A DNA stretch of 64,000 nt from Microbacterium sp. (lineage in GTDB: Bacteria; Actinomycetota; Actinomycetes; Actinomycetales; Microbacteriaceae), in the NCBI GenBank assembly GCA_017306415.1, contig JAFKIL010000003.1:496001-560000 (forward strand). The letters run 5' to 3'. How positions within the stretch are numbered: the first letter of the stretch is position 1; every line of letters starts with the position of its first letter. Below the pieces are notes generated by a model, which made no database searches, was not told the origin of the DNA, and worked only from the letters and a program-made list of their open reading frames with translations. Positions 9,723 through 44,711 of the stretch are shown here, piece by piece. Both the position numbers and the translations under genes were made by a program.

Positions 9723-9769
9723 CTACAGCGGTCCGACCCGCTGACGGAGGCGCTGGGCGTCGCGGACGG
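9723..9769 (+). repeat. 47-bp direct repeat, left copy (candidate attL)
   Basis: This sequence is identical at 46 of 47 positions to 44665-44711, in the same orientation. It begins at the stop codon of the MFS gene and encodes, on the minus strand, the last 14 residues VRDAQRLRQRVGPL, the same C-terminus as the DUF72 protein at the other copy. Such a tail suits DUF72 proteins, so this copy looks like the orphan one. It marks the left edge of the proposed island. Confidence 0.75.
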
Positions 9770-10913
9770 TGAGAGCTGTCGTGAGGATCACTGCGAGGAC
9801 CACGAAGGACGCCGCGACCGCGAACGCTCCATGCGCGCCCGCACTCTCGACGACGGCCCCCGCGACGGCGGCGCCGGCGGCCGCGCCGATGAGTGCACCG
9901 GTCCCCACCCACCCGAAGGCCTCCGCGGACTCCGCGGGCCCGACGCCTGTCGACACGTTCGCGTAGGTCAGCGCGAAGACCGGCGCAACGCCCAGCCCCG
10001 CGAGGAACAACGCTGCGCCGATCCACCAGAAGTCCGCCACCGCTCCGGACAGCGCGAGCCCCACCGCCACCACGAGCAGGCTGCGCACCAAGGACCACCG
10101 TCGGACGGAGAGCACCCCGAAGACCAGACCTCCGATGAGACTGCTCACGGAATAGACGGCCAGGAGCGCGCCGGACAGCGGCGGCTCGGATGCGAAGGCC
10201 GCGACGACGGCGACTTCGACGGCGGCCGACCCGGCGACGAGGAGGAGCCCGACGAGTACCGCGGGCCAGACCGCCGGGTGGAGCAGGACCCGCCCCACCG
10301 CGCGACCGCCGCGGGGGATGGTGGCACGCCGGACCGGACCGCTGAGCGCGAACCACATCCCGCCGACGAGGGCGACCGCCGCCGTCAGCAGCACGGCGGC
10401 GGCCCCACCGGCCGCCGCGGCGGCGAAGGCCGCCGCGACGGGCGCGACGACGAAGATCACCTCCTGGAGCGACGCGTCCAACGCCAGAACGGATGCCACC
10501 CGCTCTGGTGCGACCAGCGTCGGATAGATCGTGCGCGCCGTCGGCTGCACGGGCGGCATGCTGGCTCCGGCCACGAGGGCGAGGAGGACGAAGGCGGCGA
10601 ACGGAGGCCGGGACACGAGTTCCGGCAGCACTGCGACGGCGGCGAGCGAGCAGGACGTCGTCACTGTCGTCACGATCAGCACCGCCCGGGGTCCCCATCG
10701 CCCCGCCGCTCGACCGCCGACGGGCCCGGCGGCGGCCTGGCCCACCGACAGGACGGCGACGACGACCCCCGCGTTCGCGTACGAGCCGGTCGACTGCTCG
10801 ACGTGGAGCAGGAGTGCGATCGTCACCATGCCGGCGGGGAGGCGGGCCACGAGCTGGGAGACCAGCAGCAGCGCCACCGACGGTGCACGGAGCACCGCGA
10901 GGTAGGGATTCAC
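9723..10913 (-). CDS. MFS transporter
   Basis: This 396-residue major facilitator has about 12 hydrophobic helices and resembles the drug/sugar efflux and uptake branch. The cytoplasmic loop between helices 2 and 3 reads GGRAAGRWGPRAVL, the family's motif A region. The start is taken as a GTG at 10913 (VNPYLAVL); no strong ribosome site is seen, so it may be translationally coupled to the dehydrogenase gene ending 40 bases upstream. Its last 14 residues come from a 47-bp sequence shared with the unrelated DUF72 gene, so the native C-terminus was probably replaced. It is likely to move a hydroxy- or sugar acid, by context only. Confidence 0.85.
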   Translation of the reverse strand: MNPYLAVLRAPSVALLLVSQLVARLPAGMVTIALLLHVEQSTGSYANAGVVVAVLSVGQAAAGPVGGRAAGRWGPRAVLIVTTVTTSCSLAAVAVLPELVSRPPFAAFVLLALVAGASMPPVQPTARTIYPTLVAPERVASVLALDASLQEVIFVVAPVAAAFAAAAAGGAAAVLLTAAVALVGGMWFALSGPVRRATIPRGGRAVGRVLLHPAVWPAVLVGLLLVAGSAAVEVAVVAAFASEPPLSGALLAVYSVSSLIGGLVFGVLSVRRWSLVRSLLVVAVGLALSGAVADFWWIGAALFLAGLGVAPVFALTYANVSTGVGPAESAEAFGWVGTGALIGAAAGAAVAGAVVESAGAHGAFAVAASFVVLAVILTTALTVRDAQRLRQRVGPL

Positions 10914-10953
10914 GCCGATCCGGTTCGGCGCCGGGGTCGCCGGGCGCCCACGC

Positions 10954-12024
10954 TCAATAGAACAGCTCCCGATCCATCTCGTTGCGCAGCGGTGCTCCGG
11001 CGAGGAACCGGTCGAGGTTGTCTTCGAAGAGGGCGAGGATGTGCTCCTCCTCGTGTGCATCCAACGCCGCGGTGTGCGGACTGATGAGGACCCGATCCAT
11101 CCCCCACAGCGGGCTGTCGGCCGGCAGCGGCTCCCGCTCGAACACATCCAGTGCCGCGAATCCCACCCTGCCGTCGGTCAGCGCGGCCGCCAGCGCATGC
11201 TCGTCGACGGTGGACCCGCGGCCGACGTTCACGAAGACGGCGCCGGGCCGCAGGCATCCGATCGCCTCGGCGTCGAAGACGCGGATCGTCTCGCTCGTCT
11301 CCGGGAGTGCGCAGACGACGGCGTCCACCTCGGGCAGGATCGCGCGCAGCTCGGCCGAAGACGCGATCCGGTCCCATCCGGCCCGCTCGCGCGGATGGCG
11401 TGCGATGCCGATCGTGCGCGAGCCGAACGCGCGCAGCGTCTCCGCGACGGCGGTGCCGACACCCCCCGTCCCGAGGATCAGCACCGACGCATCCCGCAGC
11501 TGGCGAACCGGTGCGCGTTCCGGCCAGCGGCGCTCGCGCTGGTCGGCGCGACGTCCGGGGAGATCCTTGAGCCCCGCGAGCAGACCCATCACCGCGAACT
11601 CTGCGAGAGCTCTCCCGTGCACGCCGGCGGACGTCGTCACGCGCACCCCGCGCAGCTCGCGCGGGGTCAGCCCGCTCGCCCGGACCTGCGCGCCCCCTCC
11701 CGCAGCCATCGTGTGCACCCACCGCGGGCCGGGGTTCGCGCGCAGCGTTCGCGCGAGCGCCGAGGGAGAGGTGTCGGGGACACCGAACAGGATGTCGGCG
11801 CCGTCCACGAGAGCGTCGAATCGTGCTTGATCGGCGGCGGTCCGCGCGAAGCCGGGCTCCCCCGCGTAGTCGCCGGGGAATCGGCTCGCGGGGAGGAGAT
11901 CCGGCGTGTAGGCCACCTCCACGTCCGCCCGTCGAGCGAGGCGGGCAACCAACTCCGACGGAAAGGGGACGGCCACGCCGATACGCGGGGGCGCGCCGCC
12001 CTCGGCGCGGACTTCTCTCGTCAC
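10954..12024 (-). CDS. D-2-hydroxyacid dehydrogenase
   Basis: This 356-residue NAD(P)-dependent 2-hydroxyacid dehydrogenase has its Rossmann loop in ILGTGGVGTAVAETL. The catalytic arginine is in VNVGRGSTVDE, the glutamate in LDVFEREPLP and the histidine in ISPHTAA, so it appears active. The start is a GTG at 12024. It is divergent from the galactonate operon and shares the 12025-12123 regulatory region with it. Together with the MFS protein downstream it may oxidise or reduce a sugar-derived hydroxy acid. Confidence 0.9.
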   Translation of the reverse strand: MTREVRAEGGAPPRIGVAVPFPSELVARLARRADVEVAYTPDLLPASRFPGDYAGEPGFARTAADQARFDALVDGADILFGVPDTSPSALARTLRANPGPRWVHTMAAGGGAQVRASGLTPRELRGVRVTTSAGVHGRALAEFAVMGLLAGLKDLPGRRADQRERRWPERAPVRQLRDASVLILGTGGVGTAVAETLRAFGSRTIGIARHPRERAGWDRIASSAELRAILPEVDAVVCALPETSETIRVFDAEAIGCLRPGAVFVNVGRGSTVDEHALAAALTDGRVGFAALDVFEREPLPADSPLWGMDRVLISPHTAALDAHEEEHILALFEDNLDRFLAGAPLRNEMDRELFY

Positions 12025-12058
12025 ACTTGCACCTAACTGATCTTGCGTGCGGACTTAC

Positions 12059-12090
12059 AATCAGTTTCAATCATATTGTTGTCACTATCG
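12059..12090 (+). promoter_or_regulatory. Phased ATCA operator array upstream of the galactonate operon
   Basis: Half-sites AATCA, AATCA and TGTCACT have their TC steps at 12061, 12071 and 12082, so spacing is 10 then 11 bp. The segment is AT-rich within a GC-rich region and lies between divergent genes. The same pattern recurs at five other island promoters. A DeoR-type regulator is the likely reader. Confidence 0.6.
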
Positions 12091-12123
12091 CGTCGCCAAC
12101 GCGCCCCCTCGAGAGGATCCCCC

Positions 12124-13035
12124 GTGGACTCGCCGACCCCCGCTCCCGTGACTCGTGAGACCGCCGTCGACGCGCTGCGCGAGTGCGGCATCGCCGACGG
12201 CGACGTCATCCTCGTGCACTCGGCGCTCCGGCCGTTCGGAGACGTCGACGGGGGCGCGACGACGATCGCTCATTCCCTGCAGGACGCCGTGGGTCCGGCG
12301 GGGACCGTTGTCGCACCGGCGTTCACCTTCCGGCACGAGGTGGATGCCGATCCCGTGATCGACCCGCTCGGCGACCGGTCGGAGATGGGCGCGATCAGCG
12401 AGGCCATCCGCGGGATGCCAGGCGCGCTGCGCAGCACCGCCTATCGCCACAGCTTCGCCGCCGCGGGAACACGCGCCGCCCAGGTCGTCGAGACCGACCC
12501 CGCCCTCCCCGTCTTCGACATGCTCTCCACGTTCGGGCGGCTGCTCGCCCTCGACACCAAGATCGTCCTCCTGGGCCTGACGTACACGTCGTGCACGAGC
12601 TTCCACTTCGGCGAGTACCTCGTGCAGATCCCGGACCGCCACGTGGTCGCGCGCGCCGTGCGCATCCGGGGCGCGGACGGGACGCTCACCCGGGCCACAC
12701 TCGCCGACTACCAGCCGCGCCCCACCGAGGACGGACGGGAGTACGAGCACGAACACGACTTCTCGCGTGCCGGGCTCCTGCTCGAGCGCGCCGGAGCGGT
12801 CCGGGTGGGCGCGATCGGGAATGCCGTCGTGCGCGTGTTCGCCATGCGTGATCTGGTGCACCTCCTGCTGGACCGCTACGGACTCGAACCGGACATCTTC
12901 TACGTCGACCCGCAGACGGGGATGACAGAGCTGCCCGACGGGGTCTCGGTGTCCACGGGTGACCTGCGAGACGGAGCAGGACGGCTGGTGGAGACGTTCT
13001 GGTCCTGCGTCGATCCGACCCGGATGCACACCTGA
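12124..13035 (+). CDS. AAC(3)-family N-acetyltransferase
   Basis: This 303-residue protein of the aminoglycoside N(3)-acetyltransferase/YokD family uses acetyl-CoA to acylate an amine. Family signs are VILVHSALRPFGDVDGG near the start, GTVVAPAFTF, and the LGLTYTSCTSFHFGEYLV segment with the conserved histidine and glutamate. The start is the GTG at 12124 with GAGAGG upstream. It is the first gene of the galactonate operon and overlaps the kinase by TGATG. In this setting it more likely acts on an amino sugar or a catabolic intermediate than on an antibiotic. Confidence 0.82.
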   Translation: MDSPTPAPVTRETAVDALRECGIADGDVILVHSALRPFGDVDGGATTIAHSLQDAVGPAGTVVAPAFTFRHEVDADPVIDPLGDRSEMGAISEAIRGMPGALRSTAYRHSFAAAGTRAAQVVETDPALPVFDMLSTFGRLLALDTKIVLLGLTYTSCTSFHFGEYLVQIPDRHVVARAVRIRGADGTLTRATLADYQPRPTEDGREYEHEHDFSRAGLLLERAGAVRVGAIGNAVVRVFAMRDLVHLLLDRYGLEPDIFYVDPQTGMTELPDGVSVSTGDLRDGAGRLVETFWSCVDPTRMHT

Positions 13036-14006
13036 TGCCGGCCTCCGTGCCCGACGTGCGGGAAAGACCGATCGGCCCTGACGTCATCACGGTCGGCGAG
13101 ACCCTCGTCCAGCTGACGCCGCCGCACGGCGCCCGGGTGGCGACGACGACGACCTTGCTCGTGAGCACCGCCGGCGCCGAATCCAACGTGGCATCCCACC
13201 TGGCCAGGCTGGGCCACCGCGTCGCCCACCTGAGCGCGGTCGGCGACGACGCGTGGGGCAGCCGTGTGGTCGCCGATCTGGCCGACGCCGGGGTCGACGT
13301 GTCCCGGATCTCCCACCTGCCCGGTGCGCCGACGGGCCTGTACACGAAAGCTCGCGAGCACGGGGTCACCCGCGTCAGCTACCACCGCACCGGCAGCGCG
13401 GCGAGCCGCATGGGTCCGGACGACGCGGACCGCCTCCTGCCGCTGCCGCGAATCGTCCACTTCTCGGGCGTGCTCGCCGCGCTCTCTCCCTCCAGCCGCG
13501 ACCTCGCCGGACGACTCCTGCGCTCTCGCCGTCTCGGAGCACGCATCTCGTTCGACGTGAATCATCGGGCCGCTCTGTGGACCGGCGACGGAGCCGCGGC
13601 AGCGCTCCTGGAACTCGCCCGCGGCAGCGACATCGTCTTCGTCGGGCGCGACGAGGCCGAACGCCTGTGGGGTTGCCGGACCGATTCCGACCTGCGGGCC
13701 CTCATTCCGGACCCGGAGCATCTGGTCATACGCGACGACGACCGCGAAGCCGTCGAGTGGCGCGGTCTCCAGCGCAGCGCGCTCGCACCTCGGCCGGTCG
13801 AGGTCATCGAGCCGGTGGGCGCCGGCGACGCCTTCGCCGCCGGATGGCTGAGTGCGCTGCTCGACGACCCGGAAGGCGCCGCCGGCGAACGGCTCCGACG
13901 CGGCCACGCGCTCGCGGCGCTGGTCCTGGAAAGCCTCACGGACCATCCCGCCGACCCGACCGCACTGGCGTCTCTGCGGCCCGGGCGGGGTCGAGCCGGG
14001 GAATGA
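13035..14006 (+). CDS. PfkB family sugar kinase (2-keto-3-deoxy-gluconate/galactonate kinase)
   Basis: This 323-residue ribokinase-family kinase probably phosphorylates 2-keto-3-deoxygalactonate (or gluconate) for the aldolase encoded next. The N-terminal substrate region is TVGETLVQLTPPHG and GAESNVASHLARLG; the C-terminal PfkB signature with the catalytic aspartate is EPVGAGDAFAAGWL. It starts at the ATG that overlaps the previous stop. E. coli uses the unrelated DgoK for this step; here a KdgK-like protein occupies the slot. Confidence 0.88.
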   Translation: MPASVPDVRERPIGPDVITVGETLVQLTPPHGARVATTTTLLVSTAGAESNVASHLARLGHRVAHLSAVGDDAWGSRVVADLADAGVDVSRISHLPGAPTGLYTKAREHGVTRVSYHRTGSAASRMGPDDADRLLPLPRIVHFSGVLAALSPSSRDLAGRLLRSRRLGARISFDVNHRAALWTGDGAAAALLELARGSDIVFVGRDEAERLWGCRTDSDLRALIPDPEHLVIRDDDREAVEWRGLQRSALAPRPVEVIEPVGAGDAFAAGWLSALLDDPEGAAGERLRRGHALAALVLESLTDHPADPTALASLRPGRGRAGE

Positions 14007-14617
14007 TGATGAGCCTGTTCGCGCACGCCGCGCAGCATTCTCCGATCCTCGCCATCCTGCGGGGCTTCGACGTCTCCGAGACCGTGCGCCTCTGCCACCT
14101 CGCGTGGGATGCGGGCGCCCGGCTCGTGGAGGTGCCGATCCAGGACAGGGCGGGTGAGGATGCACTCGCGGCCGCCGTCGACGCGGGTCACGAGCGCGGC
14201 CTGCCCGTCGGCGCGGGAACTGTCACCTCCCTGGACAGGCTCCGGCGCGCCCGGGCGCACGGTGCGGCGTTCACGGTCGCACCGGGATTCGACACCGAGG
14301 TCGCCAGGGCCTCGCAGGACGCCGGCATCCCGCACCTGCCGGGGGTCGCGACGGCGACCGAAGTGCAGCGCGCGCTCGCCCACGGGTTCACGTGGCTCAA
14401 GGCGTTCCCCGCCGCGGAGCTCGGGCCCGCATGGATAGCGGCGATGCACGGCCCCTTCCCGGAGGCCCGTTTCGTGGCGACGGGCGGGATAGCGAAGGCC
14501 AACGCCGCTCGATTCCTGGCGGCGGGGGCCGAACTTGTCGCGATCGGCACCGCGATCAGGACCTTCGACAGCACCTGGGGACTGGACGGGCTCGGCCCGG
14601 GAGACGGAGAACGATGA
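14003..14617 (+). CDS. 2-keto-3-deoxy-6-phosphogluconate/galactonate aldolase
   Basis: This 204-residue class I aldolase of the Eda/DgoA family splits the phosphorylated keto-deoxy acid into pyruvate and glyceraldehyde-3-phosphate. The Schiff-base lysine is K133 in TWLKAFPAAE and the acid/base glutamate is E43 in LVEVPI. The phosphate-binding ATGGIAKANA is at the end of the barrel. Three tandem ATGs (14003, 14006, 14009) are possible starts; the first overlaps the kinase stop. The last four bases overlap dgoD. Confidence 0.9.
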   Translation: MMMSLFAHAAQHSPILAILRGFDVSETVRLCHLAWDAGARLVEVPIQDRAGEDALAAAVDAGHERGLPVGAGTVTSLDRLRRARAHGAAFTVAPGFDTEVARASQDAGIPHLPGVATATEVQRALAHGFTWLKAFPAAELGPAWIAAMHGPFPEARFVATGGIAKANAARFLAAGAELVAIGTAIRTFDSTWGLDGLGPGDGER

Positions 14618-15765
14618 ACACGATCGCCCGAGTGGAGACGTTCCTGGTCCCCCCGCGGTGGCTGTTCGTCCGAATCGAGACGGATGACGGCGTCGTCGGC
14701 TGGGGTGAGGCTTCTCTCGAAGGGAGCGCCGAGGTCGTCCGCCGAGCGGTCGAGCAGCACGCGGAACTCCTCGTCGGCGCGGATGCCCGGCGGATCGAGG
14801 ACCTCCACGCGGTCATGACCAAGGGCACCTTCTACCGCGGCGGTCCGGTGTTCGCGAGCGCCGTCGCCGGCATCGACCAGGCGCTGTGGGACATCGCCGG
14901 GAAGTCCCTCGGCGCCCCCGTGCACCGTCTCCTCGGCGGCCACGTCCGCGACCGCATCCGCGTCTACGGATGGGTCGGCGGTGACGATCCGTCGGAGGTC
15001 GCCGACCACATCCAGGCGCGTGTGGAGTCCGGCCTCACCGCCGTGAAGATGAACGCGGGAGGACGGGCGACCCATCTCAGTTCGTCCGCCGAGCTGGACG
15101 CCGTCGTCTCCCGCGCGGCAGCCGCCCGCGACGTCCTCGGACCGCACCGGGATGTCGCTATCGACTTCCACGGCCGAATCTCCCTGCCCGACGCGCGCCG
15201 GCTCGCCGTCCTCCTCGAACCCCTCCGGCCGCTCTTCATCGAGGAACCGGTCGTACCGGAGAACTCGGCGCTCCTGCGCGCGGTGGTCGACGCGTCGTCG
15301 GTTCCCGTGGCGACCGGCGAGCGCCTCTACCACCGATCCGACTTCCTGCCGGCACTCGAGGCCGGCATCGCGGTCGCCCAGCCCGATCTCTCCCATGCGG
15401 GCGGAATCACCGAGGTGCGCAAGATCGCCGCAGTGGCCGACGTCTTCGGGGTCCAACTCGCCCCGCACTGCCCCCTCGGCCCCCTCGCCCTCGCCAGCTG
15501 TCTGCAGGTGGGATTCTCCACGCCCAACTACCTCATCCAGGAGCAGAGCGTGGGCATCCACTACAACGAGGGGGCGGACGTCCTGGACTATCTCGTCGAC
15601 GTCGAGCCGCTGCGGTTCGTCGGCGGACACGTCTCCCTCCTGACCGAACCCGGTCTCGGGATCGCGATCGACGAAGGCCGCGTGCGCGCCGCGGACCGTC
15701 GCGGAGACGACGCGTGGCGGACACCGGTGTGGCGTCACGCGGACGGCGCATTCGCCGAGTGGTGA
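14614..15765 (+). CDS. dgoD: D-galactonate dehydratase
   Basis: This 383-residue enolase-superfamily (mandelate racemase subgroup) enzyme converts D-galactonate to 2-keto-3-deoxygalactonate. It is colinear with E. coli DgoD: PPRW near the start, FYRGGP, AGIDQALWDI, IDFHGR, LFIEEPV, QPDLSHAGGITE, APHCPLGP, QEQSMGIHYN-like QEQSVGIHYN, and the last residues WRH..AEW. Metal ligands D184, E210 and E236 and the bases H186 and H285 are all present. It overlaps the aldolase gene by ATGA and ends the operon 12 bases before the convergent gene. Confidence 0.96.
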   Translation: MNTIARVETFLVPPRWLFVRIETDDGVVGWGEASLEGSAEVVRRAVEQHAELLVGADARRIEDLHAVMTKGTFYRGGPVFASAVAGIDQALWDIAGKSLGAPVHRLLGGHVRDRIRVYGWVGGDDPSEVADHIQARVESGLTAVKMNAGGRATHLSSSAELDAVVSRAAAARDVLGPHRDVAIDFHGRISLPDARRLAVLLEPLRPLFIEEPVVPENSALLRAVVDASSVPVATGERLYHRSDFLPALEAGIAVAQPDLSHAGGITEVRKIAAVADVFGVQLAPHCPLGPLALASCLQVGFSTPNYLIQEQSVGIHYNEGADVLDYLVDVEPLRFVGGHVSLLTEPGLGIAIDEGRVRAADRRGDDAWRTPVWRHADGAFAEW

Positions 15766-15777
15766 CCGGGGCTGCGA

Positions 15778-17790
15778 TCAGCGGATGCGGATCAGCACGG
15801 ACTCGAGGGGCGCCATCGTCGTCTCGACGAGGAGCCGGCCGCCTTCGAACACGAACTCCGGTGAGGTGCGGCCGCGGTCGCTGTGATCGGCCGCCACACG
15901 CGAGACCGCGCTCGCGGACGGAAGACGCAGCCGCAGCCGCGGGACCGGGTCGAGAGAGGCGTTGACGAGGTATAGGAGCAGCTCGTCGCTCGTTCGGTAC
16001 TCGTAGAGCGCCACATCCGCGCAGCCCTCGACCCGGACGACGTCCGCGCGCCAGGCGTCGAGGACGCCGTGCATCATCTCCTGGCGAAGCGTCGTGCGCA
16101 CCATCGGCACCAGTCCGGCGAGAGCGTCGATGCGTCCGAAGGGGACGATCATGACGCGGTCGTCGACGATCGCATGCCCCGTCCCGCGGTCCTCGTGGCC
16201 GGGCGCGCGGAGTGTCGTGAGGGCTCTCGACCGTCCGGGCACGTAGGTCACCTGCGCGATGTCGGCACCCATCAGGAGCACCGACGCGCGGGCCGCGGGT
16301 CTCCCGAGCAGCGGAGCATCTCGGACGGCCTCCTCGTACGTCACGGCCCCGGCATCCCCGGCGCTCCAGGCCAGCGTCTCCGCCCCTGCCAGGGAGCCCA
16401 GTCCCATGTCGATGAGCGTGTCCACTGCCTCGGCGTCGAGGAGAAGCCGGTTGGCGAGGAACAGCGCGCGCGTCCTCTCGACACCGATCGTGCGGAACAG
16501 CTGACCCGACACCGCTACCACAGCCCCTGCGATGTCGGAGTCGGTCGAGAACCGGAACGCGATGCCGTAGGCGCCCAGCAGGCCGGCGAAGAACCCCTCC
16601 CGCGGGTAGAGCTCGGTCATCTCCGCACCGCTCGACGTGTGCAGTGCCGCCGAGGAATCCTCATCCACGAGGACGACGACGCCCCCGCGAGTCTCCCGGA
16701 ATACGGGCGCCGTGCGCTCCAGGTAGTCCTTCGTCGCCGCTAGAGCATCCTGGTACCCCTCGGTCCAGACGATGCCGTTGCCATTGAGATCGAACAGGTC
16801 GAGGGTCATCCCGTCGAGCGCGAGGACCTGCGCGCTGAGCAGCTGGAACCGGAGGAATGCGGATGACTTCGCGAACCGCGAGTACGGGAAGTTCTCCAGC
16901 TCGGGATAGATCTCGGCCGTCGCGGGCAGGAGAGCCCTGTGCAGATCGGCGATCAGGTGGAACGCGGTCAGGTACTCCGCCGGACGTGTCTCGGAGTAGG
17001 CGGGCAGATGGATCCGCACAGCAGGGGGATGCTCGCCGGACAGGGCCCCCAGCAGTTCTGCCCAGTGCCGGCCCTCCGCGGCGTGGACCGCTGGCACGGA
17101 GGTCATCAGACCGAGCCGCGTGCCGGGCGATACCGCGTGGACCGCGCGCTCGATCGCCGCGGCCGTCTCCTCGAGCGCCTCGCGCGCGGTGTCGAGCCAG
17201 ATGCCGCGGAACTCGCTCACCTCGCCGGGCTGCAGCATCCCGCTGACGAACTCTTCGCGGGTGAGGGGTCGACCCGCACGCCGCGAGAACTCGGCGAGAT
17301 GCTCGTCGCAGAAGCAGCCGCCCCACCACAGCGGAGGATGGTTGTGATACCGGAAGTCGTCCTCGACCCACAGGAAGCGGGGTCGCGCGGACGCGTAGTA
17401 CTCGTACAGCTGGGCCAGGTAGGTACGCCACGCCTCGTCTCGCGGACAGACGACGAGGTCGGCGACGCGCCCGCGCGGATCGACCATGCGCCGGAACGAC
17501 TGTCCTTCGCGCAGCCGCTTCCCGTAGTCGCCGTGCATCACCGTGTGCCACGGATTCAGCGACATCGAGGCGTCCGCCCGCGCAGCCACCGTCGCCGTGC
17601 GTTCGGCGAGGTCGCGGAAGACGGCGCGCTCTCGAAGGTCCGTATGGCCCGTGTTGAGCTCCTCCACGTTGGCGAAGACCATCACATCGTCGATACGGGC
17701 CGCGCGCACGTATTCGGGCAGCTGCTCGAGCGAGTAGGCCTCGGTCCGGCCCGGGTCCACGGCGAACCGCAGCGAGTAGAGGTAGCTCAT
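15778..17790 (-). CDS. Putative glycoside hydrolase of unassigned family (TIM-barrel, GH42-like layout)
   Basis: This 670-residue protein has no signal peptide. The N-terminal two thirds look like a clan-A-type barrel. LWVEDDFRYHNH (residues 140-151, E143 a possible acid/base) and AEIYPELENFPYSR (292-305, E297 or E299 a possible nucleophile) are the most enzyme-like motifs. WWGGCFCDEHLAEF gives two cysteines that could bind metal. The C-terminal part resembles the beta-sandwich and trimerisation regions of GH42-type enzymes. It overlaps the upstream esterase gene by 4 bp and is last in a long sugar operon, so intracellular oligosaccharide cleavage is plausible. I cannot assign a CAZy family. 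Confidence 0.55.
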   Translation of the reverse strand: MSYLYSLRFAVDPGRTEAYSLEQLPEYVRAARIDDVMVFANVEELNTGHTDLRERAVFRDLAERTATVAARADASMSLNPWHTVMHGDYGKRLREGQSFRRMVDPRGRVADLVVCPRDEAWRTYLAQLYEYYASARPRFLWVEDDFRYHNHPPLWWGGCFCDEHLAEFSRRAGRPLTREEFVSGMLQPGEVSEFRGIWLDTAREALEETAAAIERAVHAVSPGTRLGLMTSVPAVHAAEGRHWAELLGALSGEHPPAVRIHLPAYSETRPAEYLTAFHLIADLHRALLPATAEIYPELENFPYSRFAKSSAFLRFQLLSAQVLALDGMTLDLFDLNGNGIVWTEGYQDALAATKDYLERTAPVFRETRGGVVVLVDEDSSAALHTSSGAEMTELYPREGFFAGLLGAYGIAFRFSTDSDIAGAVVAVSGQLFRTIGVERTRALFLANRLLLDAEAVDTLIDMGLGSLAGAETLAWSAGDAGAVTYEEAVRDAPLLGRPAARASVLLMGADIAQVTYVPGRSRALTTLRAPGHEDRGTGHAIVDDRVMIVPFGRIDALAGLVPMVRTTLRQEMMHGVLDAWRADVVRVEGCADVALYEYRTSDELLLYLVNASLDPVPRLRLRLPSASAVSRVAADHSDRGRTSPEFVFEGGRLLVETTMAPLESVLIRIR

Positions 17791-19223: not shown

Positions 19224-19252
19224 GTCGTTGCTCCTGGTGGTGCGGATCGCGG

Positions 19253-31602: not shown

Positions 31603-31649
31603 CATCGGCGTCCTCCGCGACGCCGCAGAGAAGGCAATGAGGGAACGAC

Positions 31650-36405: not shown

Positions 36406-36434
36406 GGGGCCTCACCCTCGCGCAGGACAGCTGC

Positions 36435-36938: not shown

Positions 36939-37771
36939 GCCACCGCCGGCGCGCCGATCAGGGCACGGGCGTCGGCCGCCGACGCCTCGCCATGCGTGAT
37001 CGCCATCAGGGCCCTCGTCATCCCCCGCGGATCCTCATGCTGGAGGATGTTGCGACCGTACACGAGCCCCGCCACGCCGGTGCGCATGAGGGCGGCCGTG
37101 CGCTCGAGCACGGCCTCCGTGTCCGCGACGCCTCCCCCGCGGACCAGGAGGGGGCGCCCACCCGCGGCCTCGACCGCGCGGACGTAGTCTTCGGCGCGGT
37201 CGCTCGGATCCGCCTTGACCAGGTCGGCGCCGAGCTCGACCGCCTGACGGACGAGCGTGACGATCTTCTCGATGTCTCCGTCGACTCCGTATCCGCGATC
37301 ATCGGGCTTCATCGCGAGCGGTTCCACCATCAGCGGCATCCCGGTGCGATCGGCCCACGCGCGCAACGCGACCACATTGCGTACGGACTGCTCGAAGAGC
37401 TCCGGATGCCCCGGCAGGCTGAGCAGATTGACGACGATGCACGCCGCATCCAACGCGATCGCCCGGTCGAAGACCGACTCGATCACGGCGCTGAAGAGGT
37501 GGTCCGGACGGTCCGGACCGTAGAAGTTGCCGACGTCGGCGCGCATGACCAGTGCCGGCCGCGGACCTGAACGGTACTGCATCACCTCCGCCTGGCCCGG
37601 GGAGAGCTGGATCGCGTCGGGCGCCGCGTCGATGAGGGTGTCCACCGTCGCCCGGATGTCCTCGATGCCATGGAGGAAGCTCGCCTCGCCGAACGTGCCG
37701 TGGTCGATCGCGACATCGAGGCAGCGTCCGTCTGCGGCGAAGAGGCGCGACATGCGTGCGCGTGAGTTCAT
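36935..37771 (-). CDS. Class I DhnA/LsrF-type aldolase family protein
   Basis: This 278-residue barrel is of the DeoC/LacD/DhnA superfamily, closest in layout to LsrF and class I fructose-bisphosphate aldolases. The Schiff-base lysine is probably in GADLVKADPSD, with AIDHGTFG near the start, MVEPLAM in the middle and VRGGGVADTEAVL as the phosphate loop. It probably cleaves the phosphorylated product of the FGGY kinase and isomerase in the same unit. It overlaps the membrane-protein gene by 4 bp. Confidence 0.85.
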   Translation of the reverse strand: MNSRARMSRLFAADGRCLDVAIDHGTFGEASFLHGIEDIRATVDTLIDAAPDAIQLSPGQAEVMQYRSGPRPALVMRADVGNFYGPDRPDHLFSAVIESVFDRAIALDAACIVVNLLSLPGHPELFEQSVRNVVALRAWADRTGMPLMVEPLAMKPDDRGYGVDGDIEKIVTLVRQAVELGADLVKADPSDRAEDYVRAVEAAGGRPLLVRGGGVADTEAVLERTAALMRTGVAGLVYGRNILQHEDPRGMTRALMAITHGEASAADARALIGAPAVA

Positions 37772-37798
37772 GTGTGATGTTCCGTTCTGATGGAGCCG

Positions 37799-39580
37799 TC
37801 AGACGAACCACTCGCCGGACTGCTGCGGCTGGACGTCGACGAGGGGCTGAGGAGCGTGGACGCTGGGGAGCCACGCGAACGCGTCGCCGTCCGGTCGGAG
37901 GACGCCGGCTGCGAGGAGGTCGGCGATCACCTGCGGCGGCAGCGCGTCTGCCGCGATGTGCGCGGGATCGTGCTCCGCGAGCAGACGCAGGCGGCCGGGG
38001 AGATCCGGATGGCGGTCCAGGTAGTCGGGCGCCAGATGCAGGATTCCGTGCGCGAGATAGGCGATGTGAGGATGGGCGTCCCGGCGCCGAGGGGTGAGGG
38101 CGAGCACGCACATCGTCGCGCTGCGCGCCGGCGAGGAGGAGGGGCTCGCGGCGGACACCGCGTCGACGTTGTACGCGAAGTGGATGTCGCCAATGCGATC
38201 GAACGCGACGGCGTCGGCCACGGCAACGCCGTCGACGTCCGTGCGCACCTCGATCGTGATGGTCGACTCGGCCTGCGTGCGCGTGTCCACGGTCCCGTCG
38301 GCGTTCCAGACCGGCACGAACCGGAACGTGATCGGAACCCCCGGGATCGGCTCCTCTCCCCGATGCAGCCACGCGGTGAAGCTGTTCAGGTAGGTGTCGC
38401 CGGACGGATCCGTTCGACGCGTGAGCGTCAGCTCTGCGGTGGGCGGGAGGGAGTCCCCGATACGGAATCGATCCACGCCGATCACCATGTCCTCCTCGCC
38501 GAAGGGAGAGTCCGACCCGACGTGACCGAAGTTCGCGAGGCGCCCATCCGGGAGCGTCATGAGATAGGGCTGGTACAGGCTCGGCGGGAGCCCTTCGACG
38601 GGATGCCAGTTCTCACCCCGATCGTTGGAGACGGAGTAGGGCTTGCCCCGACGCGACCCGACGAGAAGCCCGTCCCCCGTGGCGACGACCGACTCGGGCA
38701 CCCAGCCGCCCTGCGGATCCCGCCGAGGATCCGCGGGTGCGCCGAGTCCGATGGGAAGGACGGCACGCGGGTAGAAGCGCTCCCCGTCGCGACGGACGAG
38801 CTGTCGCCCGACCGGTGTGGCCTGGACGTCGCCGGCGATGAAGAGGAGTGTCTCGTCGTCGAGTTCGACCACGTCGAACTCGTGCGCCCCGGTCCCGGCC
38901 AGCACGTAGTGCGGGCCGTCGAAGGTGCGGCCGTCGCGGGTCGTGAGGAAGAACGGCTGGATCTTGCCGATGTAGGTCTCTCCGGGGAGCATGGTGTTGC
39001 GCGTGGCGCGTTCTCGGCCGAGACCCCAGGGGGTGCCGTAGAGCGACGCCAGGATCACATACGTGCCATCGCGCAGCCGGCGGATGCGCCAGAGGTAGGG
39101 TGCCTCGCCCTCCAGCAGCCGGGCCACCGGGGCCCACGACGTCCCGCCGTCCACGCTCTCACGCACGTCGATGAAGTCGCACCACCCCGTGCGGTCCGCG
39201 TTGATCCGGGGGACATCGAGACCGATGATGCGCCCGTCCGGGAACCCGATGTTCGCGAAAGAGCCCTCCTCGAGATCGCACCGACCGGTCTCGTACCACG
39301 AGTCGCCCGAGTCGTCGGACGCGAGATACACGCGGTACGAGGTCTGCTCCCCGCTTCCGCACTCGACGGAGCCATAGGAGACGGGCGCCCCGACCGCTTC
39401 AGCCATCTCGAGCCGCGGCGGGATGAAGCGGGGATTGGGCTCGCCCTTGGTCTCTTTGAAGGACAGGCCGACCCGGCCGTCGCCGTAGTCGAAGCCCGTC
39501 GCCCAGGCGACGAAGCCCGGCCGTCGTTCCGGAACGTACACCTCGGATCGCTCTGCGTCGATCGCCCGCACTCCGCTCAT
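37799..39580 (-). CDS. Three-part BNR propeller protein, paralogue 2
   Basis: This 593-residue paralogue of the 27544-29328 protein has the same order: a propeller with Asp-boxes SVDGGTSWA and SNDRGENW, an Ig-like region, and a C-terminal helical segment (ALPPQVIADLLAAGVL). Roughly half the residues match by eye, with near-identical blocks such as GAHEFDVVE, GDVQATPVGRQLVR and GKPYSVSND. No signal peptide is seen. It overlaps the class III aminotransferase gene by 4 bp. The divergence between copies suggests related but different substrates. Confidence 0.72.
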   Translation of the reverse strand: MSGVRAIDAERSEVYVPERRPGFVAWATGFDYGDGRVGLSFKETKGEPNPRFIPPRLEMAEAVGAPVSYGSVECGSGEQTSYRVYLASDDSGDSWYETGRCDLEEGSFANIGFPDGRIIGLDVPRINADRTGWCDFIDVRESVDGGTSWAPVARLLEGEAPYLWRIRRLRDGTYVILASLYGTPWGLGRERATRNTMLPGETYIGKIQPFFLTTRDGRTFDGPHYVLAGTGAHEFDVVELDDETLLFIAGDVQATPVGRQLVRRDGERFYPRAVLPIGLGAPADPRRDPQGGWVPESVVATGDGLLVGSRRGKPYSVSNDRGENWHPVEGLPPSLYQPYLMTLPDGRLANFGHVGSDSPFGEEDMVIGVDRFRIGDSLPPTAELTLTRRTDPSGDTYLNSFTAWLHRGEEPIPGVPITFRFVPVWNADGTVDTRTQAESTITIEVRTDVDGVAVADAVAFDRIGDIHFAYNVDAVSAASPSSSPARSATMCVLALTPRRRDAHPHIAYLAHGILHLAPDYLDRHPDLPGRLRLLAEHDPAHIAADALPPQVIADLLAAGVLRPDGDAFAWLPSVHAPQPLVDVQPQQSGEWFV

Positions 39581-41106
39581 CGAGTCTCCTCCATTCCGAC
39601 CAGGACCTTCTCCATCCGCTCGAGGACCGCCTCGACGGTCGCCGCCGTCGAGATCATCGGCAGCTTCGTGAGCGCCGCGGGCGGTGCGCTCGGCTTGTAC
39701 GCCTGGACGCTGATGTCCACGCCGTGCTCACGATCGAGCTCTCGACAGAAGCGGGATGCATCCGTCGCGTCGAAGAACTCGATCGCGGCCATGTGCTGGT
39801 CTCCGGACACCGCTCGCAGGAGTCGGGAGTGACGCGACACGAGCGCGCCGAGAAGCTCGTGGTAAAGCGCGCCGGTCGCGTCGATGTGGTCCGTGTTCGC
39901 CCGCACGAAGGCCATCGTGATGAGGTAGGCGAGACTCGCCAGCTCCTCCTGGCCGTTGGTGACCAGCGCGCCGAACTGCGCGAGCGAGTCCATCCGCTCG
40001 CTCAGCAGGATCCGACTGGCCGGGTACTCGCCGCCGGGGAACCCCTTCCCGATCGCCACGAGATCCGGATGCAGTCCGTATCTGCGGAACAGGAAGAGCT
40101 CGCCGTACCACGCGCCGCTCTGGATCTCATCGCAGAAGACAGGTACATCCGCCTCGTGGCAGATCCGGTAGGCGTCGCGAAGATAGTCGGGGTCCAGTCG
40201 CAGCCCGCCATAGTTCATCATGACGATCTCGTGGCAGAAGCCTGCGACGGCTCCGCCGTCCCGAGTCGCCTCGGCGAACGTCGCACGGAAGTCCGCGATG
40301 TCATTGGGGCGCACCGCGAGGACGCGATAGAGCCCGGCTGCGCCCGCGCGTTCGGTCATGCCGGGCCAGAGCCCGCGGAGCGACTGCGCGAGCGTCGTGG
40401 TCCCGTGGTAGTTGCCCGTGATGCCGCCATCGCGATCGCCCATGACCAGGAAGACCGGGATCCGGTCGGGACCGGCCGCAGGCGCCCCGCCGTCCGCGGG
40501 CCAGAAGCGCGCGAGCATCATCTTCAGGGCCGCCTCGGCGGCGAGCGATCCCGTCTCCAGGTTGATGACGCGGGACAGCCGCGGCGTGGTCCCTGGCTCG
40601 GGAAGGTCGGGATCCGGTGCGGCCGCATTGACCAGCTCGCGCTCGAGCAGTCGGGTCACATGCCCCCGGGTGTTGTTGTGCGTGGCGTTGGGGATGCCGA
40701 GACGGCGCGCCGCGTCGATGAGGCGATAGCCCGGGAATGCGTGCCCGAGGCTGAGCTGGTAGTGCTCGCTCTTGCCCGCGATGTGGATCCGGCCGTCCTG
40801 TCCGATCCGACACACCCCGAGGCCGCCGAGCGGCGCCCCCGCGTCGTTCTGAGCGCGCGCGAAGGCCTCGGTCGCCGCGCCCGCGACGTCGTCGTCCCAC
40901 GGCGGCACGAGCTGATCGCCCGCCCGCCTGGCCAGTTCGTCGCTGCGGGCCGCGAAGGACGGCGGGAAGAACTCGACCGGCTCGGAGGCGACGTCGTCCA
41001 GCGCCGCCGCGTGCTCACCGGTCAGGGCCGAGGAGACGCGGATGACCGCGTCGATGTAGGCGTCGCCGAGCATGTCCCGCAGGGATCTGCTGATGTTCTC
41101 GATCAT
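39577..41106 (-). CDS. Class III PLP-dependent aminotransferase
   Basis: This 509-residue fold-type I aminotransferase of class III has the PLP aspartate and glutamine in VFCDEIQSGAWYGE, the PLP lysine in LVAIGKGFPGGEYP, and a threonine-rich GTTTLAQSL segment near the phosphate. It is longer than typical (about 430) because of an N-terminal extension of around 100 residues. GGAGGG precedes the ATG. It lies between an isomerase and a propeller gene, so amino transfer to or from a sugar-derived carbonyl is likely. The RidA gene at the other end of the unit fits enamine or imine handling. Confidence 0.85.
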   Translation of the reverse strand: MIENISRSLRDMLGDAYIDAVIRVSSALTGEHAAALDDVASEPVEFFPPSFAARSDELARRAGDQLVPPWDDDVAGAATEAFARAQNDAGAPLGGLGVCRIGQDGRIHIAGKSEHYQLSLGHAFPGYRLIDAARRLGIPNATHNNTRGHVTRLLERELVNAAAPDPDLPEPGTTPRLSRVINLETGSLAAEAALKMMLARFWPADGGAPAAGPDRIPVFLVMGDRDGGITGNYHGTTTLAQSLRGLWPGMTERAGAAGLYRVLAVRPNDIADFRATFAEATRDGGAVAGFCHEIVMMNYGGLRLDPDYLRDAYRICHEADVPVFCDEIQSGAWYGELFLFRRYGLHPDLVAIGKGFPGGEYPASRILLSERMDSLAQFGALVTNGQEELASLAYLITMAFVRANTDHIDATGALYHELLGALVSRHSRLLRAVSGDQHMAAIEFFDATDASRFCRELDREHGVDISVQAYKPSAPPAALTKLPMISTAATVEAVLERMEKVLVGMEETR

Positions 41107-41122
41107 TTCGCGCCCTCCGGCC

Positions 41123-42511
41123 TCAGACCCTCACGTGTTCGATGCCGTTCATCGAGCACCACAGCTCGAGACGCGCGCCGGTGTCGCCGAGCGCGAGCGC
41201 CTGATGATGCGCGCCACCGGCCGACATCCAGTCGCGCGCCATGCGCGCTGCTCCGCTGTCCGGCTGAAAGAAGAAGTAGGGCATGTCGCAGCCGGGGAGC
41301 GCGACCTGCTCGAGGATCCGCCCCGAGGCCGACACGAGGCGGTACTCGTCACCGCCGACGTGCACCAGCGACGCCAGGACCGCCCGCTCGGCGCGCGGAG
41401 CGAAGACCGTTGTCGGCGGGTCGCCGAGGCCGCCTTCGGTGAGGACGCGGTGGATGATCCGAGGCCGACCCTCGGCCAGACGCCAGTTCGCCTCGCCGGC
41501 GTGGGCGCACAGGACGGCGTCGCGCTCGTGGTCGAGCATGTACATCTCGGTGAACCCTGCGGCGGAGAACAGGCGTTGGAAGACGGTCACGAGGGTCGCC
41601 GCCTGGACGTCCCCCTCGGCCGCGTATCCGTAACCGTCGGCCATGAGGTGCGACGCCGCGAGGAGAGGGAGCTGCCGGAAGCGCCCATCGGCTCCGAAGT
41701 CCTCGTAGTGCGCCGTGTAGCCCGCGAAGTCGTTGTCCTCGAGCCACCTGGCGATGCCGAGGTACAGGCGCACGGCGTAGGCATGCGCGTCTTCCGACAG
41801 GGCCGGATCGATGTCGAAGCGCGCGCGGTCGTCCGCGACGCGCGCACGCACGGCATCGTCGCCGACGGCGGCGACCCTCCGCTGGATCTCGCCGACAGGT
41901 TGGTGGACCACCTGTGGACCGAGTCGACGGAGCAGCACCATCTCGTCGGTGACGATGTCCCCCATGCCGGTCAGCGCGCCGACGGCACCGATCCTCATGC
42001 GGTGCGCGTCGGCCGTCGCCGCGCACGCGGCCGCGAAGTCTGCGAGGAACGCCGCGAGGGCACCATCGCTGCGGCGCCCGGCGAAGAGCGCGGGTCGCAC
42101 ACCGCCGCGCAGGAGAGTGTTGACGACATCCTGCGCGCCGTGGATGCCCTGATTGACGGTGAGGCCCCGCTCGTCGACATCCGTGCGGACGGTCTCGTCG
42201 GGCTGGACGAGGGCGAGGGCGAACGGAAGGGGCGAGTCGAGCGCCGCCCGCAGCACGTGCTGACCAGGCGCGTACGACAGCATCAGGATCAGGATGCCGT
42301 CGACGCCGTCGACATGGAATCCCGCCACGATGTGCTCGATCGACGCGCGGTCGATCGCGGCCCCGGGGAAGACGAAGTCTGCGATTCCGACGTGTTCGGC
42401 CAGGAGTCGCCGCACGAACTCCTCCTGCTCCTCCTGGATGCCGGGGAACAGCGGCTTGTACGCGTCCAGCAGCAGTCCCAGCACGCCGATGCGCGGCGGT
42501 GCGATCGTCAT
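41123..42511 (-). CDS. L-arabinose/L-fucose isomerase family protein
   Basis: This 462-residue manganese-type aldose-ketose isomerase has candidate metal ligands E299 in GYAAEGDVQAA, D327 in MLDHERD, H337 in LCAHAGEAN and H435/H436 in GGAHHQAL, matching the AraA pattern in order and spacing. It probably converts an imported aldose to a ketose for the FGGY kinase, whose gene overlaps by 4 bp. AraA is about 500 residues, so this is a shorter relative; the sugar is unknown. Confidence 0.85.
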   Translation of the reverse strand: MTIAPPRIGVLGLLLDAYKPLFPGIQEEQEEFVRRLLAEHVGIADFVFPGAAIDRASIEHIVAGFHVDGVDGILILMLSYAPGQHVLRAALDSPLPFALALVQPDETVRTDVDERGLTVNQGIHGAQDVVNTLLRGGVRPALFAGRRSDGALAAFLADFAAACAATADAHRMRIGAVGALTGMGDIVTDEMVLLRRLGPQVVHQPVGEIQRRVAAVGDDAVRARVADDRARFDIDPALSEDAHAYAVRLYLGIARWLEDNDFAGYTAHYEDFGADGRFRQLPLLAASHLMADGYGYAAEGDVQAATLVTVFQRLFSAAGFTEMYMLDHERDAVLCAHAGEANWRLAEGRPRIIHRVLTEGGLGDPPTTVFAPRAERAVLASLVHVGGDEYRLVSASGRILEQVALPGCDMPYFFFQPDSGAARMARDWMSAGGAHHQALALGDTGARLELWCSMNGIEHVRV

Positions 42512-44028
42512 CGTGAACGTCCTTCCGGGGTGGGGTCGAGTGGGAGGGGGTCTGGCCACGCAGCGGCGAGCGCCGCGCCGACGCGCGCGGATCTGCGCAT
42601 CCCCCGGTCGTAGGTCTCGCGCAGCGACGGGTCGGGGTGCAGGCGGGGGGAGCCCGACAGGTCGAGTCCCTGCCCCCGGTGGCGCAGACCGCTCCCCCAG
42701 AGGGCCAGGAGGGCAGCCCCTGCCGAGCTCGCCTCGGACTGGGTGAGCGGCGTCAACGGGATCCCGCAGACATCGGCGGTGATCCGCTGCCAGACGCCGC
42801 TGCGGGCCCCGCCCCCGGAGGTGCGCAGGTCCTCCGGTCGACAGCCGGCGTCAGCGAGCCGGCCGAGCATCGTGTGAAGCTCGAACGCGGTCGCCTCCAT
42901 CACGCCGCGCACGAGGTGTCCAGGGCCGGTGTCCATCCCGACACCGAGGAAGCCGCCCGGGGCGTCGCCCGCGGGATCGGCCGCCGACGCGAGGTGGGCG
43001 AGGGCAAGCACCCCACCCGCTCCGGGGGCCACGACCTCCGCGAGCGCATCGAGGTCGGCGTAGTCGTGTCGCTCCCGGCCGAGGAGGTCCCGCAGCCATC
43101 GCAGCACCACCGCCCCGGTGGGGAGGAACTCGATCGCGAGGAGACGCTGGGGCACCACGTGCCGGTAGAACGTCGTGCGGTGCCCGTCGGGATGGGGCTC
43201 CGGCACGACGTCCAGAGTCGCGGTGACGGTCAGTGCCGTACCGAACGTGACGTTGGCGACACCGGGGCCGGTCACGCCTGCAGCCAGGGCGGCCGCGGTC
43301 TGATCCATCGCGCCCGCGATCACGACGGTACCGTCGGCGAGCCCGGTGACACGGCACCATGAAGGGAGGACCGCACCGACGGTCGTCCCGGATTCGACGA
43401 GGTCGGGGAGTTGCTCACGTGCGATGCCTGCGGCACGCAGCGCGGCGTCCCAATAGTCGTCGGCGCCGACATCGAACCACCCGGTGGATGTCTGGAGCGA
43501 GGGTGTCGTGACGGTGCGACCCGTGAGCGCGCTCACCACGAAGTCTTCGAGGAGGAGGAACCGCACGGCGCCGTGATAGCGCGCAGGATCCGTCCGCCTC
43601 AGCATCGCCACCTTGGCGACCGGCACCGCGCCGGTGAGACGCGCGACGCCCGTGGTCCGGTAGACGCGCTCGGACCCGAGATGCTCCTCGAGGCGCGCCG
43701 CGTCGGAGCCGGCACGACTGTCGAGCCACACGATGGCGTTCCCGAGCGGCGTGCCGTCGGCATCGACGGCGATAAGGGTCTCTCCTTGCGTCGTGCAGCA
43801 GACGGCGCGGATCCGCTCAGCGGAGCCGACCTCGCCGACCAGTGCCCCGAGAACGCCCCGGACAGCATCCAGATACACCTCGGGGGCGACTTCGATCCGT
43901 CCGTCCGCCGCATCCAGGGCGTATTCGATCGAGCGCACGGCGAGCGGAGCCTCCAGCGAGGTGCCCCAGAGGCAGGCTTTGATCGTCGTCGTCCCGATGT
44001 CGATCGTGATCACCAGGTCCTGCTCCAT
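42508..44028 (-). CDS. FGGY family carbohydrate kinase
   Basis: This 506-residue sugar kinase of the hexokinase/actin fold has the phosphate-1 loop IDIGTTTIKACLW, the catalytic aspartate in AGAMDQTAAALAAG and the adenosine loop TSGGGARSGVWQ. It resembles xylulo-, ribulo- and gluconokinases and the AI-2 kinase branch. GAGGAGGTGAC precedes the ATG. It is the first gene of the minus-strand unit, directly behind the phased operator, and is followed by an isomerase in the order kinase-isomerase, as in araBA. Confidence 0.92.
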   Translation of the reverse strand: MEQDLVITIDIGTTTIKACLWGTSLEAPLAVRSIEYALDAADGRIEVAPEVYLDAVRGVLGALVGEVGSAERIRAVCCTTQGETLIAVDADGTPLGNAIVWLDSRAGSDAARLEEHLGSERVYRTTGVARLTGAVPVAKVAMLRRTDPARYHGAVRFLLLEDFVVSALTGRTVTTPSLQTSTGWFDVGADDYWDAALRAAGIAREQLPDLVESGTTVGAVLPSWCRVTGLADGTVVIAGAMDQTAAALAAGVTGPGVANVTFGTALTVTATLDVVPEPHPDGHRTTFYRHVVPQRLLAIEFLPTGAVVLRWLRDLLGRERHDYADLDALAEVVAPGAGGVLALAHLASAADPAGDAPGGFLGVGMDTGPGHLVRGVMEATAFELHTMLGRLADAGCRPEDLRTSGGGARSGVWQRITADVCGIPLTPLTQSEASSAGAALLALWGSGLRHRGQGLDLSGSPRLHPDPSLRETYDRGMRRSARVGAALAAAWPDPLPLDPTPEGRSR

Positions 44029-44045
44029 GTCACCTCCTCTGGGAT

Positions 44046-44083
44046 GTGATCAATACTGCCACAAGAATGATTGTTAATGATCG
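44046..44083 (-). promoter_or_regulatory. Phased ATCA operator upstream of the FGGY-kinase unit
   Basis: Read on the minus strand, GATCATTAAC, AATCATTC and TTGATCAC place TC steps 10 bp apart (plus-strand GA at 44079 and 44069) and again about 21 bp further (44048). It is close to the kinase start at 44028 and also upstream of the divergent RidA gene. Confidence 0.55.
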
Positions 44084-44155
44084 CAGTAGCGGCCTCTGGC
44101 ATAATTCAGTCAATAAACTGCACGGACGCACCGTCAGACGAGAGCAGGGAGCGCC

Positions 44156-44575
44156 ATGGGAGACAGGGAAGTGGTCACACCGGAGGCTCCGGCTCCCGGC
44201 GGAAGCTACTCGCAGGGCGTCATCGCCGGCGACTTCATCTTCACGGCTGGGTTCGGCCCCGGGGATCCCGGCACGGGGGAGGTCCGCGGGTCAACGGTGT
44301 ACGAGCAGACGAGGTTCGCACTGGAGAACGTCGCGGCCGTCCTCGCATCAGCGGGCGCGTCCCTCGGCGATGTCGTGAAGGTCACGTCCCATCTGAGCGA
44401 CCTCGCCGACTTCGAGGAGTACGATCGCGCCTTCGCCTCCGCGTTCTCGAAGCCCTTTCCGGCGCGCACGACGGTCGGCTCCCGCCTGGCGGGCATCCTC
44501 GTGGAGATCGACGTGGTGGCCCGGGTGCCGAATCCGTGCGCGCACGGCGGCTCGAGCGGACGCCGCACGGCGTGA
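44156..44575 (+). CDS. RidA family (YjgF/YER057c/UK114) deaminase
   Basis: This 139-residue protein is a trimeric enamine/imine deaminase. Family residues are visible in SYSQGVIAGDFIFTAG, VVKVTSHLSDLADF, the substrate-binding arginine in PARTTVGS and the glutamate in VEIDVVA. It is divergent from the FGGY unit and likely shares its operator. It would detoxify reactive 2-aminoacrylate-like or imine products of the two PLP aminotransferases in the island. It is the last gene before the right repeat. Confidence 0.9.
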   Translation: MGDREVVTPEAPAPGGSYSQGVIAGDFIFTAGFGPGDPGTGEVRGSTVYEQTRFALENVAAVLASAGASLGDVVKVTSHLSDLADFEEYDRAFASAFSKPFPARTTVGSRLAGILVEIDVVARVPNPCAHGGSSGRRTA

Positions 44576-44664
44576 CGACGATGTCGCCCCGGCGGTGGAG
44601 TCGGCGCGACTCACGAAGCTCGTGGAGACACGGCTCTGACGCTCACCGCGGGCAGGAGCCGACC

Positions 44665-44711
44665 CTACAGCGGTCCGACCCGCTGACGGAGACGCTGGGC
44701 GTCGCGGACGG
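44665..44711 (+). repeat. 47-bp direct repeat, right copy (candidate attR/attB end)
   Basis: This copy has one mismatch to 9723-9769, same orientation. It contains the stop codon and last 14 codons of the DUF72 gene on the minus strand. Since the encoded tail continues a normal DUF72 ending (NDGDGNAVRDAQRLR), this is likely the original chromosomal site. Confidence 0.75.

Follow-up and report, generated by a model that had tools for sequence, protein, structure and literature searches.

How can a block of sugar-catabolism genes come to lie, cleanly bounded, behind an ordinary protein gene when nothing that might have moved it is recognised inside it? The question is raised by a stretch of 64,000 nucleotides from Microbacterium sp. 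(assembly GCA_017306415.1, contig JAFKIL010000003.1, positions 496,001 to 560,000), here called the window in its whole length; its source contig (C4) measures 799 kb. About 34.9 kb of the window lie between two copies of a 47-bp sequence, one of which ends a gene for a DUF72 protein and the other a gene for a transporter of the MFS family (Table 1). A preliminary description, made from the sequence letters, had interpreted this layout as the result of a site-specific insertion behind the DUF72 gene. We conclude that a foreign block was very probably inserted there. As to its route of entry our choice is tentative: a one-sided recombination event, which we place slightly ahead of site-specific integration. 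A search of the open-access literature found no report of this locus.

The two copies are in direct orientation and agree at 46 of 47 positions, as the preliminary description had noted. The single mismatch (CGC at the MFS gene, CGT at DUF72) falls in an arginine codon in both, and the last bases of each copy are the stop codon of the gene that it closes. Both open reading frames (ORFs) are on the minus strand and, again as described earlier, close in frame with the same C-terminal end, VRDAQRLRQRVGPL. Beyond the 47 bp the flanks of the two copies are unrelated (9/50 and 14/50 bases identical on the two sides), and both junctions are clean. When up to 3 mismatches were allowed, the 47-bp sequence was found twice in the 3.76-Mb genome and its reversed control not at all; a 24-bp core, searched at the same tolerance, matched twice in the window and never in 100 shuffles. 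Random 47-mers from the window (200 draws) had a best match elsewhere of 27.8/47 on average and 32 at most. These searches rule out a chance origin of the match. They also rule out a many-copy repeat, which the preliminary description had named as an argument against insertion: there are two genomic copies in all. A tRNA target is ruled out too, as the window has no tRNA or tmRNA gene. The intergenic DNA beside either repeat gave nothing but matches of 14-20 bp to loci of relatives, at E 0.025 or worse.

To which gene did the sequence originally belong? To judge from orthologous proteins the tail is native to DUF72, because the orthologues share a comparable C-terminal motif, in most cases AVR(D/N)A..L(R/K); the earlier assignment of the right copy as the natural 3' end of the DUF72 gene is thereby borne out. 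Such orthologues, 56-72% identical, are present in at least 59 of 365 other genomes of the genus (two of them as partial matches), a lower bound, as two candidates were scored per genome and the DUF72 gene of the home genome was itself missed. A 33-nt part of the DUF72 end could be compared in 36 of 38 relative loci (L138 and L143 yielded no tail). It is identical to that of the window at 15-24 of the 33 positions, 61% on average, and the relatives average 64% among themselves. The copies in the window are 98% identical, and the orphan copy therefore comes from this lineage itself or from one very near to it. The DUF72 gene itself looks resident, since relatives (43-48%) of the gene on its far side, at 45433-45915, recur within about 7 kb of DUF72 in 7/38 loci, in six of them on the 5' side as in the window.

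The MFS gene has an unusual end. At 51 of 60 loci its relatives carry a different tail, VR..PDLR..SP.PDT, which is missing from the MFS protein of the window; the other nine gave no tail match, and the 60 loci amount to 44 distinct DNA segments, some genomes being represented twice. As the relatives have another tail and the 47 bp are native to DUF72, the MFS reading frame is closed by a tail that belongs to DUF72, and the left copy is indeed the end of an unrelated gene, as first proposed. The closest MFS relatives are at most 48% identical (31 loci at 39-48% in a contig scan). At the corresponding codons, CGTCCGC occurs in 13 of the 44 distinct relatives and GTCCGCG in 11, and a microhomology of 7-8 bp between the MFS end and the DUF72 tail is plausible.

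The composition of the block points to a foreign origin. A gene finder trained on the window predicted 59 genes. The G+C content at third codon positions (GC3) averages 0.880 in the 30 genes between 9723 and 44575, against 0.927 in the remaining 29 (Mann-Whitney p 4e-7), with 0.909 in the left flank and 0.940 in the right. A segmentation of GC3 with two breakpoints, blind to the repeats, placed its best edges at 9723 and 44575; a shift of the right edge to 45915 costs 1.2 log units and one of the left edge to 10954 costs 5. Two results tell against so sharp an outline: the GC3 of the left flank falls between those of the block and the right flank, and a segmentation by full synonymous codon use is best at 9723-45915, with 45975-62206 and 916-45915 within 3 units. 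Composition therefore speaks for a foreign block, whose edges it locates just roughly. Together with the DUF72-native tail on the MFS gene, the GC3 edges at the repeats support the part of the preliminary description that had the block inserted behind DUF72.

A parallel to this layout exists in one relative. Using the DUF72 end of each genome, we looked for second copies in the 36 loci that had yielded a tail, 20 of which had an extra downstream stretch of up to 20 kb. One locus, L146 of genome G161 (G161:C1:1271500-1291400), has a second end in the same orientation, 1.47 kb downstream and identical at 46/47 positions (minus-strand copies at locus positions 9760-9806 and 8286-8332); we left out of the count apparent second copies in L080 and L145, which overlie the tail itself on the opposite strand. 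The G161 repeat is longer: each copy measures about 402 bp, with 353 identities, 46 mismatches and 6 gaps between the two, and covers some 280 bp of DUF72 together with the hairpin region that follows. A complete DUF72 gene is followed by a shortened end of the neighbouring gene, unrelated DNA, a 5'-truncated DUF72 and the full neighbour end. This neighbour, which from its motifs we take to be of the ClpB type, lies downstream of DUF72 in 9/38 loci. The truncated DUF72 of G161 thus keeps a neighbour seen in eight other loci; in the window, it is the DUF72 tail that stands before an LLM-type oxidoreductase gene. The G161 locus is an independent partial duplication at DUF72. Its repeat differs from that of the window in length and edges, and the position of the joint therefore varies; with a fixed attachment site, both loci would be expected to share one joint.

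Any account of how the block entered has to start from four observations: the 47-bp repeat, the DUF72 gene as the native place of that sequence, the boundary in GC3 and the unusual MFS tail. The explanation that we tentatively favour, while granting that the others taken together outweigh it, is homology-facilitated illegitimate recombination, a process proposed for the immunity-gene arrays of the type VI secretion system (T6SS) of Vibrio cholerae in the relevant part of PMC5361080. The incoming DNA would have come from a close relative that already had DUF72 followed by the block. One homologous crossover, presumably in or beyond DUF72, would have anchored it; the other end of the donor, within the end of the MFS gene, would have been joined illegitimately to the resident DUF72 tail, perhaps at CGTCCGC(G). 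In this way the MFS gene would have lost its own C-terminus and taken over the DUF72 tail with its stop codon in frame. DUF72 would have stayed intact, and its last 47 bp would have been left as an orphan at the far edge, before the LLM gene. Before the insertion DUF72 and LLM would have been adjacent, LLM being the old downstream neighbour. We favour this reading because it needs no mobility gene, because the parallel in G161 fits it, because the microhomology is plausible and because the genome encodes Ku, so that end joining is available. As far as the arrays are described in that source, they likewise combine a homology anchor on one side with an illegitimate joint on the other and an old gene piece pushed downstream; they differ from the present case, in which the left-over is no longer than 47 bp and supplies the in-frame end of another gene.

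If DUF72 and LLM were once neighbours, empty sites might be expected in relatives. Full-length LLM orthologues of at least 71% identity are present in 108 of the 365 other genomes, and 34 relatives have both genes. In none of the 34 is DUF72 directly followed by LLM: in 18 the two are on one contig, at least 161 kb apart, and in 16 on different contigs. The preliminary description had held that a lack of this adjacency in relatives without the sugar genes would refute insertion. Formally this is the case, but the test is weak because the two genes sit in differing, non-syntenic surroundings across the genus. In 20 LLM neighbourhoods, the sole other left-flank gene with a relative of at least 45% identity was an oxidoreductase gene (51-55%, in 4 of them). 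Conversely, in 3 of the 38 DUF72 neighbourhoods, which extend up to 20 kb, left-flank genes have relatives near DUF72: a GNAT gene (73%, 1.7 kb away, in G100), an SDR gene (85%, adjacent, in G341) and a HAD gene (64%, adjacent and on the 5' side, in G255). These cases lend modest support to the view that the left flank and DUF72 once were neighbours. The genes to the right of 45433-45915 had no relative of at least 45% in the 38 DUF72 neighbourhoods, and the block genes had one, an aldolase at 50%.

Several points count against a one-sided recombination. The identity of the two copies stops exactly at the stop codon, and the model needs chance, or a change of neighbour in the donor, to account for this. 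In an ungapped alignment judged by eye, the VR codons of the MFS gene are off by one residue; moreover the best MFS relatives, at 48% identity, are too distant to give the native MFS end, so the microhomology stays a candidate. The predicted donor, with DUF72 followed by the block and no left copy, was not found in any genome. Of the three left-flank genes seen near DUF72, just two are located 3' of it, one of them (the SDR gene) in inverted orientation with respect to the window. In G161 the DUF72 allele of the repeat differs from the neighbouring upstream copy, which makes the layout a parallel and not the same event. Finally, homology-facilitated illegitimate recombination is rare where its frequency has been determined, at 3e-10 per recipient in E. 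coli according to the part of PMC3240628 that deals with it.

Site-specific integration at the DUF72 3' end, as first proposed, is the closest competitor and a real possibility, if a somewhat lesser one. The integrase would have been lost later or would have acted in trans, and the remnant would be a cis-mobilisable element (CIME) with attL and attR. A duplication that runs from inside a gene exactly to its stop codon, leaves the gene whole and places the orphan at the far end is the classical layout of such events. The actinomycete integrative and conjugative elements (AICEs) of Streptomyces, as presented in the pertinent part of PMC9513070, resemble the block in having direct repeats of 2-94 nt, protein-gene targets in 14/51 cases, sizes of 11.9-36.2 kb and some defective members. 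They were, however, found via traB and mostly keep an integrase, and neither gene is recognised in this block. In the ssrA islands of Dehalococcoides, catabolic cargo is likewise bordered by a gene on one side and by a short copy of the 3' end of that gene on the other, and 15 of them are without an integration module, according to the section of PMC3146451 concerned. Those islands differ in targeting a tmRNA gene with a 20-bp repeat and in having sister islands with a serine recombinase, none of which was seen at DUF72. CIMEs, as characterised in the relevant portion of PMC5704250, have lost their integration and transfer genes and lie between attL and attR. The block is like them in its att-like repeats at a gene 3' end and in that no integration or transfer gene was recognised among its 30 genes, which does not imply that such genes were once present. 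It is unlike them in that its repeats are candidate att sites and no partner element was seen at the site.

The outcome of the search for mobility genes speaks against this mechanism. The Pfam matches of the 30 block genes (three had none) include no integrase, relaxase, TraB, transposase or other mobility family, in agreement with the preliminary description, which had seen no integrase, and the largest gap between predicted block genes is 242 bp. No tyrosine or serine recombinase match lies on the source contig, although the genome as a whole has 7 and 4, respectively. Around DUF72 no integrase-like ORF was found in the 38 loci with six integrases of the home genome as queries; in a control, five of the six found one another and the sixth found itself alone, so distant families could be missed. 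The 24-bp core had no exact match in viral contigs. Against phages the 47 bp gave 26 weak records, none covering 80%, and against plasmids 114 records, 7 of them covering at least 80%, the best at 82% identity and E 0.06. Positions 9600-33600 of the window matched four plasmid records, over short stretches of conserved genes. With such short or weak matches alone, a plasmid or phage origin was dropped. Of the features of an integrative element, then, the repeats that complete the DUF72 3' end are present, and an integrase, a relaxase, TraB and other transfer genes were not recognised. The core does contain an inverted repeat, with arms and spacer of 6 bp each, but inverted repeats this large are present in 13.6% of the 47-mers sampled from the window and at 11/59 gene ends, and the one in the core was dropped as a sign of an integrase. 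The integrase would have to have been lost completely, 0/34 relatives have an empty site, and the sole other duplicated DUF72 end (1/36) has another length and other edges. These results do not support the specific mechanism of the preliminary description.

The remaining explanations are weaker. Campbell-type integration, in which a circle carrying the block and a 3' piece of DUF72 would have recombined through RecA over the 47 bp or a longer homology, is unlikely. It would give the same direct-repeat layout without an integrase, but 47 bp is short for RecA, an earlier fusion of the MFS gene to the DUF72 tail on the circle would be needed, and no plasmid record has the core or more than short pieces of window positions 9600-33600. 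For E. coli, the relevant part of PMC3240628 does report that linear DNA can circularise and integrate by RecA-dependent single crossing-over. Quite improbable is a staggered break in the DUF72 end, with 47-nt overhangs filled in and a linear fragment captured by Ku-dependent end joining to give a target duplication: Ku is encoded and both junctions are clean, but both ends would have to be illegitimate, and the coincidence of the edge with the stop codon would go unexplained. Hardly credible is an old resident cluster without any insertion, in which gene conversion or a local rearrangement would have given the MFS gene a copy of the tail, for although relatives show no empty site, the GC3 edges coincide with the repeats, the solute-binding protein of the block has no close relative in 22 other genomes of the genus (best E 1.5e-8; 38 genomes, the home genome included, were searched), and three block proteins gave one listed match, of 30% identity at E 1e-40, in the 365 other genomes, with two candidates scored per genome. 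The three-protein search missed the AraA-like gene of the block in the home genome and is therefore a partial test of absence.

Table 1. Features of the locus in window coordinates
Feature	Position	Strand	Basis or remark
LLM-type oxidoreductase, first gene left of the block	8620..9594	-	Pfam Bac_luciferase
Block, very probably inserted, 30 predicted genes, about 34.9 kb	9723..44664		GC3 and repeats
Left (orphan) copy of the DUF72 3' end	9723..9769	-	last 15 codons, including stop, of the MFS ORF
MFS transporter ending in DUF72 tail	9723..10913	-	Pfam MFS_1
Antibiotic_NAT-family gene, PfkB kinase, KDPG-type aldolase, DgoD-like enolase-superfamily gene	12148..15765	+	Pfam
670-aa protein without Pfam match, SASA esterase, aldo/keto reductase, DHDPS-family lyase, DegT aminotransferase, BNR protein, solute-binding protein, two permeases	15778..27371	-	Pfam
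576-aa protein without Pfam match, GFO/IDH/MocA oxidoreductase, DeoR regulator, SIS, ROK, PfkB, class II aldolase, amidohydrolase	27598..36405	+	Pfam
167-aa protein without Pfam match, DeoC/LacD aldolase, BNR-type protein (below cut-off), class III aminotransferase, AraA-like isomerase, FGGY kinase	36435..44028	-	Pfam
Gene presumed to be RidA-like, right end of the block	44156..44575	+	Pfam Ribonuc_L-PSP
Right copy, native 3' end of the DUF72 gene by comparison	44665..44711	-	orthologues have a similar ending
DUF72 gene, intact, apparently resident	44665..45426	-	Pfam DUF72 3e-67, profile 1-216 of 217

The cargo is dominated by genes for sugar catabolism, transport and regulation, 27 of the 30 having a Pfam match at E 1e-3; this count includes the BNR match at 37799-39580, which is below the Pfam curated cut-off. 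The preliminary description had seen nothing but glycan catabolism between the repeats. This holds for most of the block but not for the MFS, Antibiotic_NAT-family and RidA-like genes, nor for the three proteins without a match at that threshold (15778-17790, 27598-29328 and 36435-36938). For the first of these one relative, of 30% identity, was listed in the 365 genomes under the two-candidate scoring. The DgoD-like gene has a partial DNA match to an annotated dgoD, and the dehydratase, kinase and aldolase of the block resemble what we take to be the De Ley-Doudoroff galactonate route. The amidohydrolase is presumably NagA-like, a name suggested by the genes in its company. The solute-binding protein and the permeases form an ABC importer. 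The importer and its neighbouring genes (21069-27371) have a G+C content of 0.61-0.66, below most of the block, and the block may therefore itself be a mosaic.

In three promoter regions of the block, TTCAATCAT is followed by TCA, at window positions 12066, 25385 and 31576. The strict form occurs nowhere else in the window, and these sites are perhaps a shared operator. The earlier statement that the motif is confined to the block thus stands for the strict form; a looser form has 18 sites, inside and outside. The left flank also contains a gene for an Arr-type rifampin ADP-ribosyltransferase (6458-6868; Pfam Arr-ms), for which relatives of 74-78% identity are listed in 5 of the 12 other genomes searched.

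As an instance of gene acquisition the block is real but of an ordinary kind, and the inserting agent left no recognised trace. What sets it apart is that a large catabolic island is cleanly bounded, that no mobility gene is recognised in it and that its boundary gave a transporter gene a borrowed end. One might go further and regard the DUF72 3' end as a recurrent docking point for cargo-only DNA in Microbacterium, without an encoded integrase and with left-over tails of varying length (47 bp here; in G161 about 280 bp of DUF72 and downstream DNA), although we consider this generalisation doubtful. If the 47-bp edge is fixed among close strains, actinobacteria would have an additional attachment site in a protein gene. 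If the left-over lengths at DUF72 vary among close strains, an ordinary protein gene would act time and again as the anchor at which DNA is taken up without an integrase.

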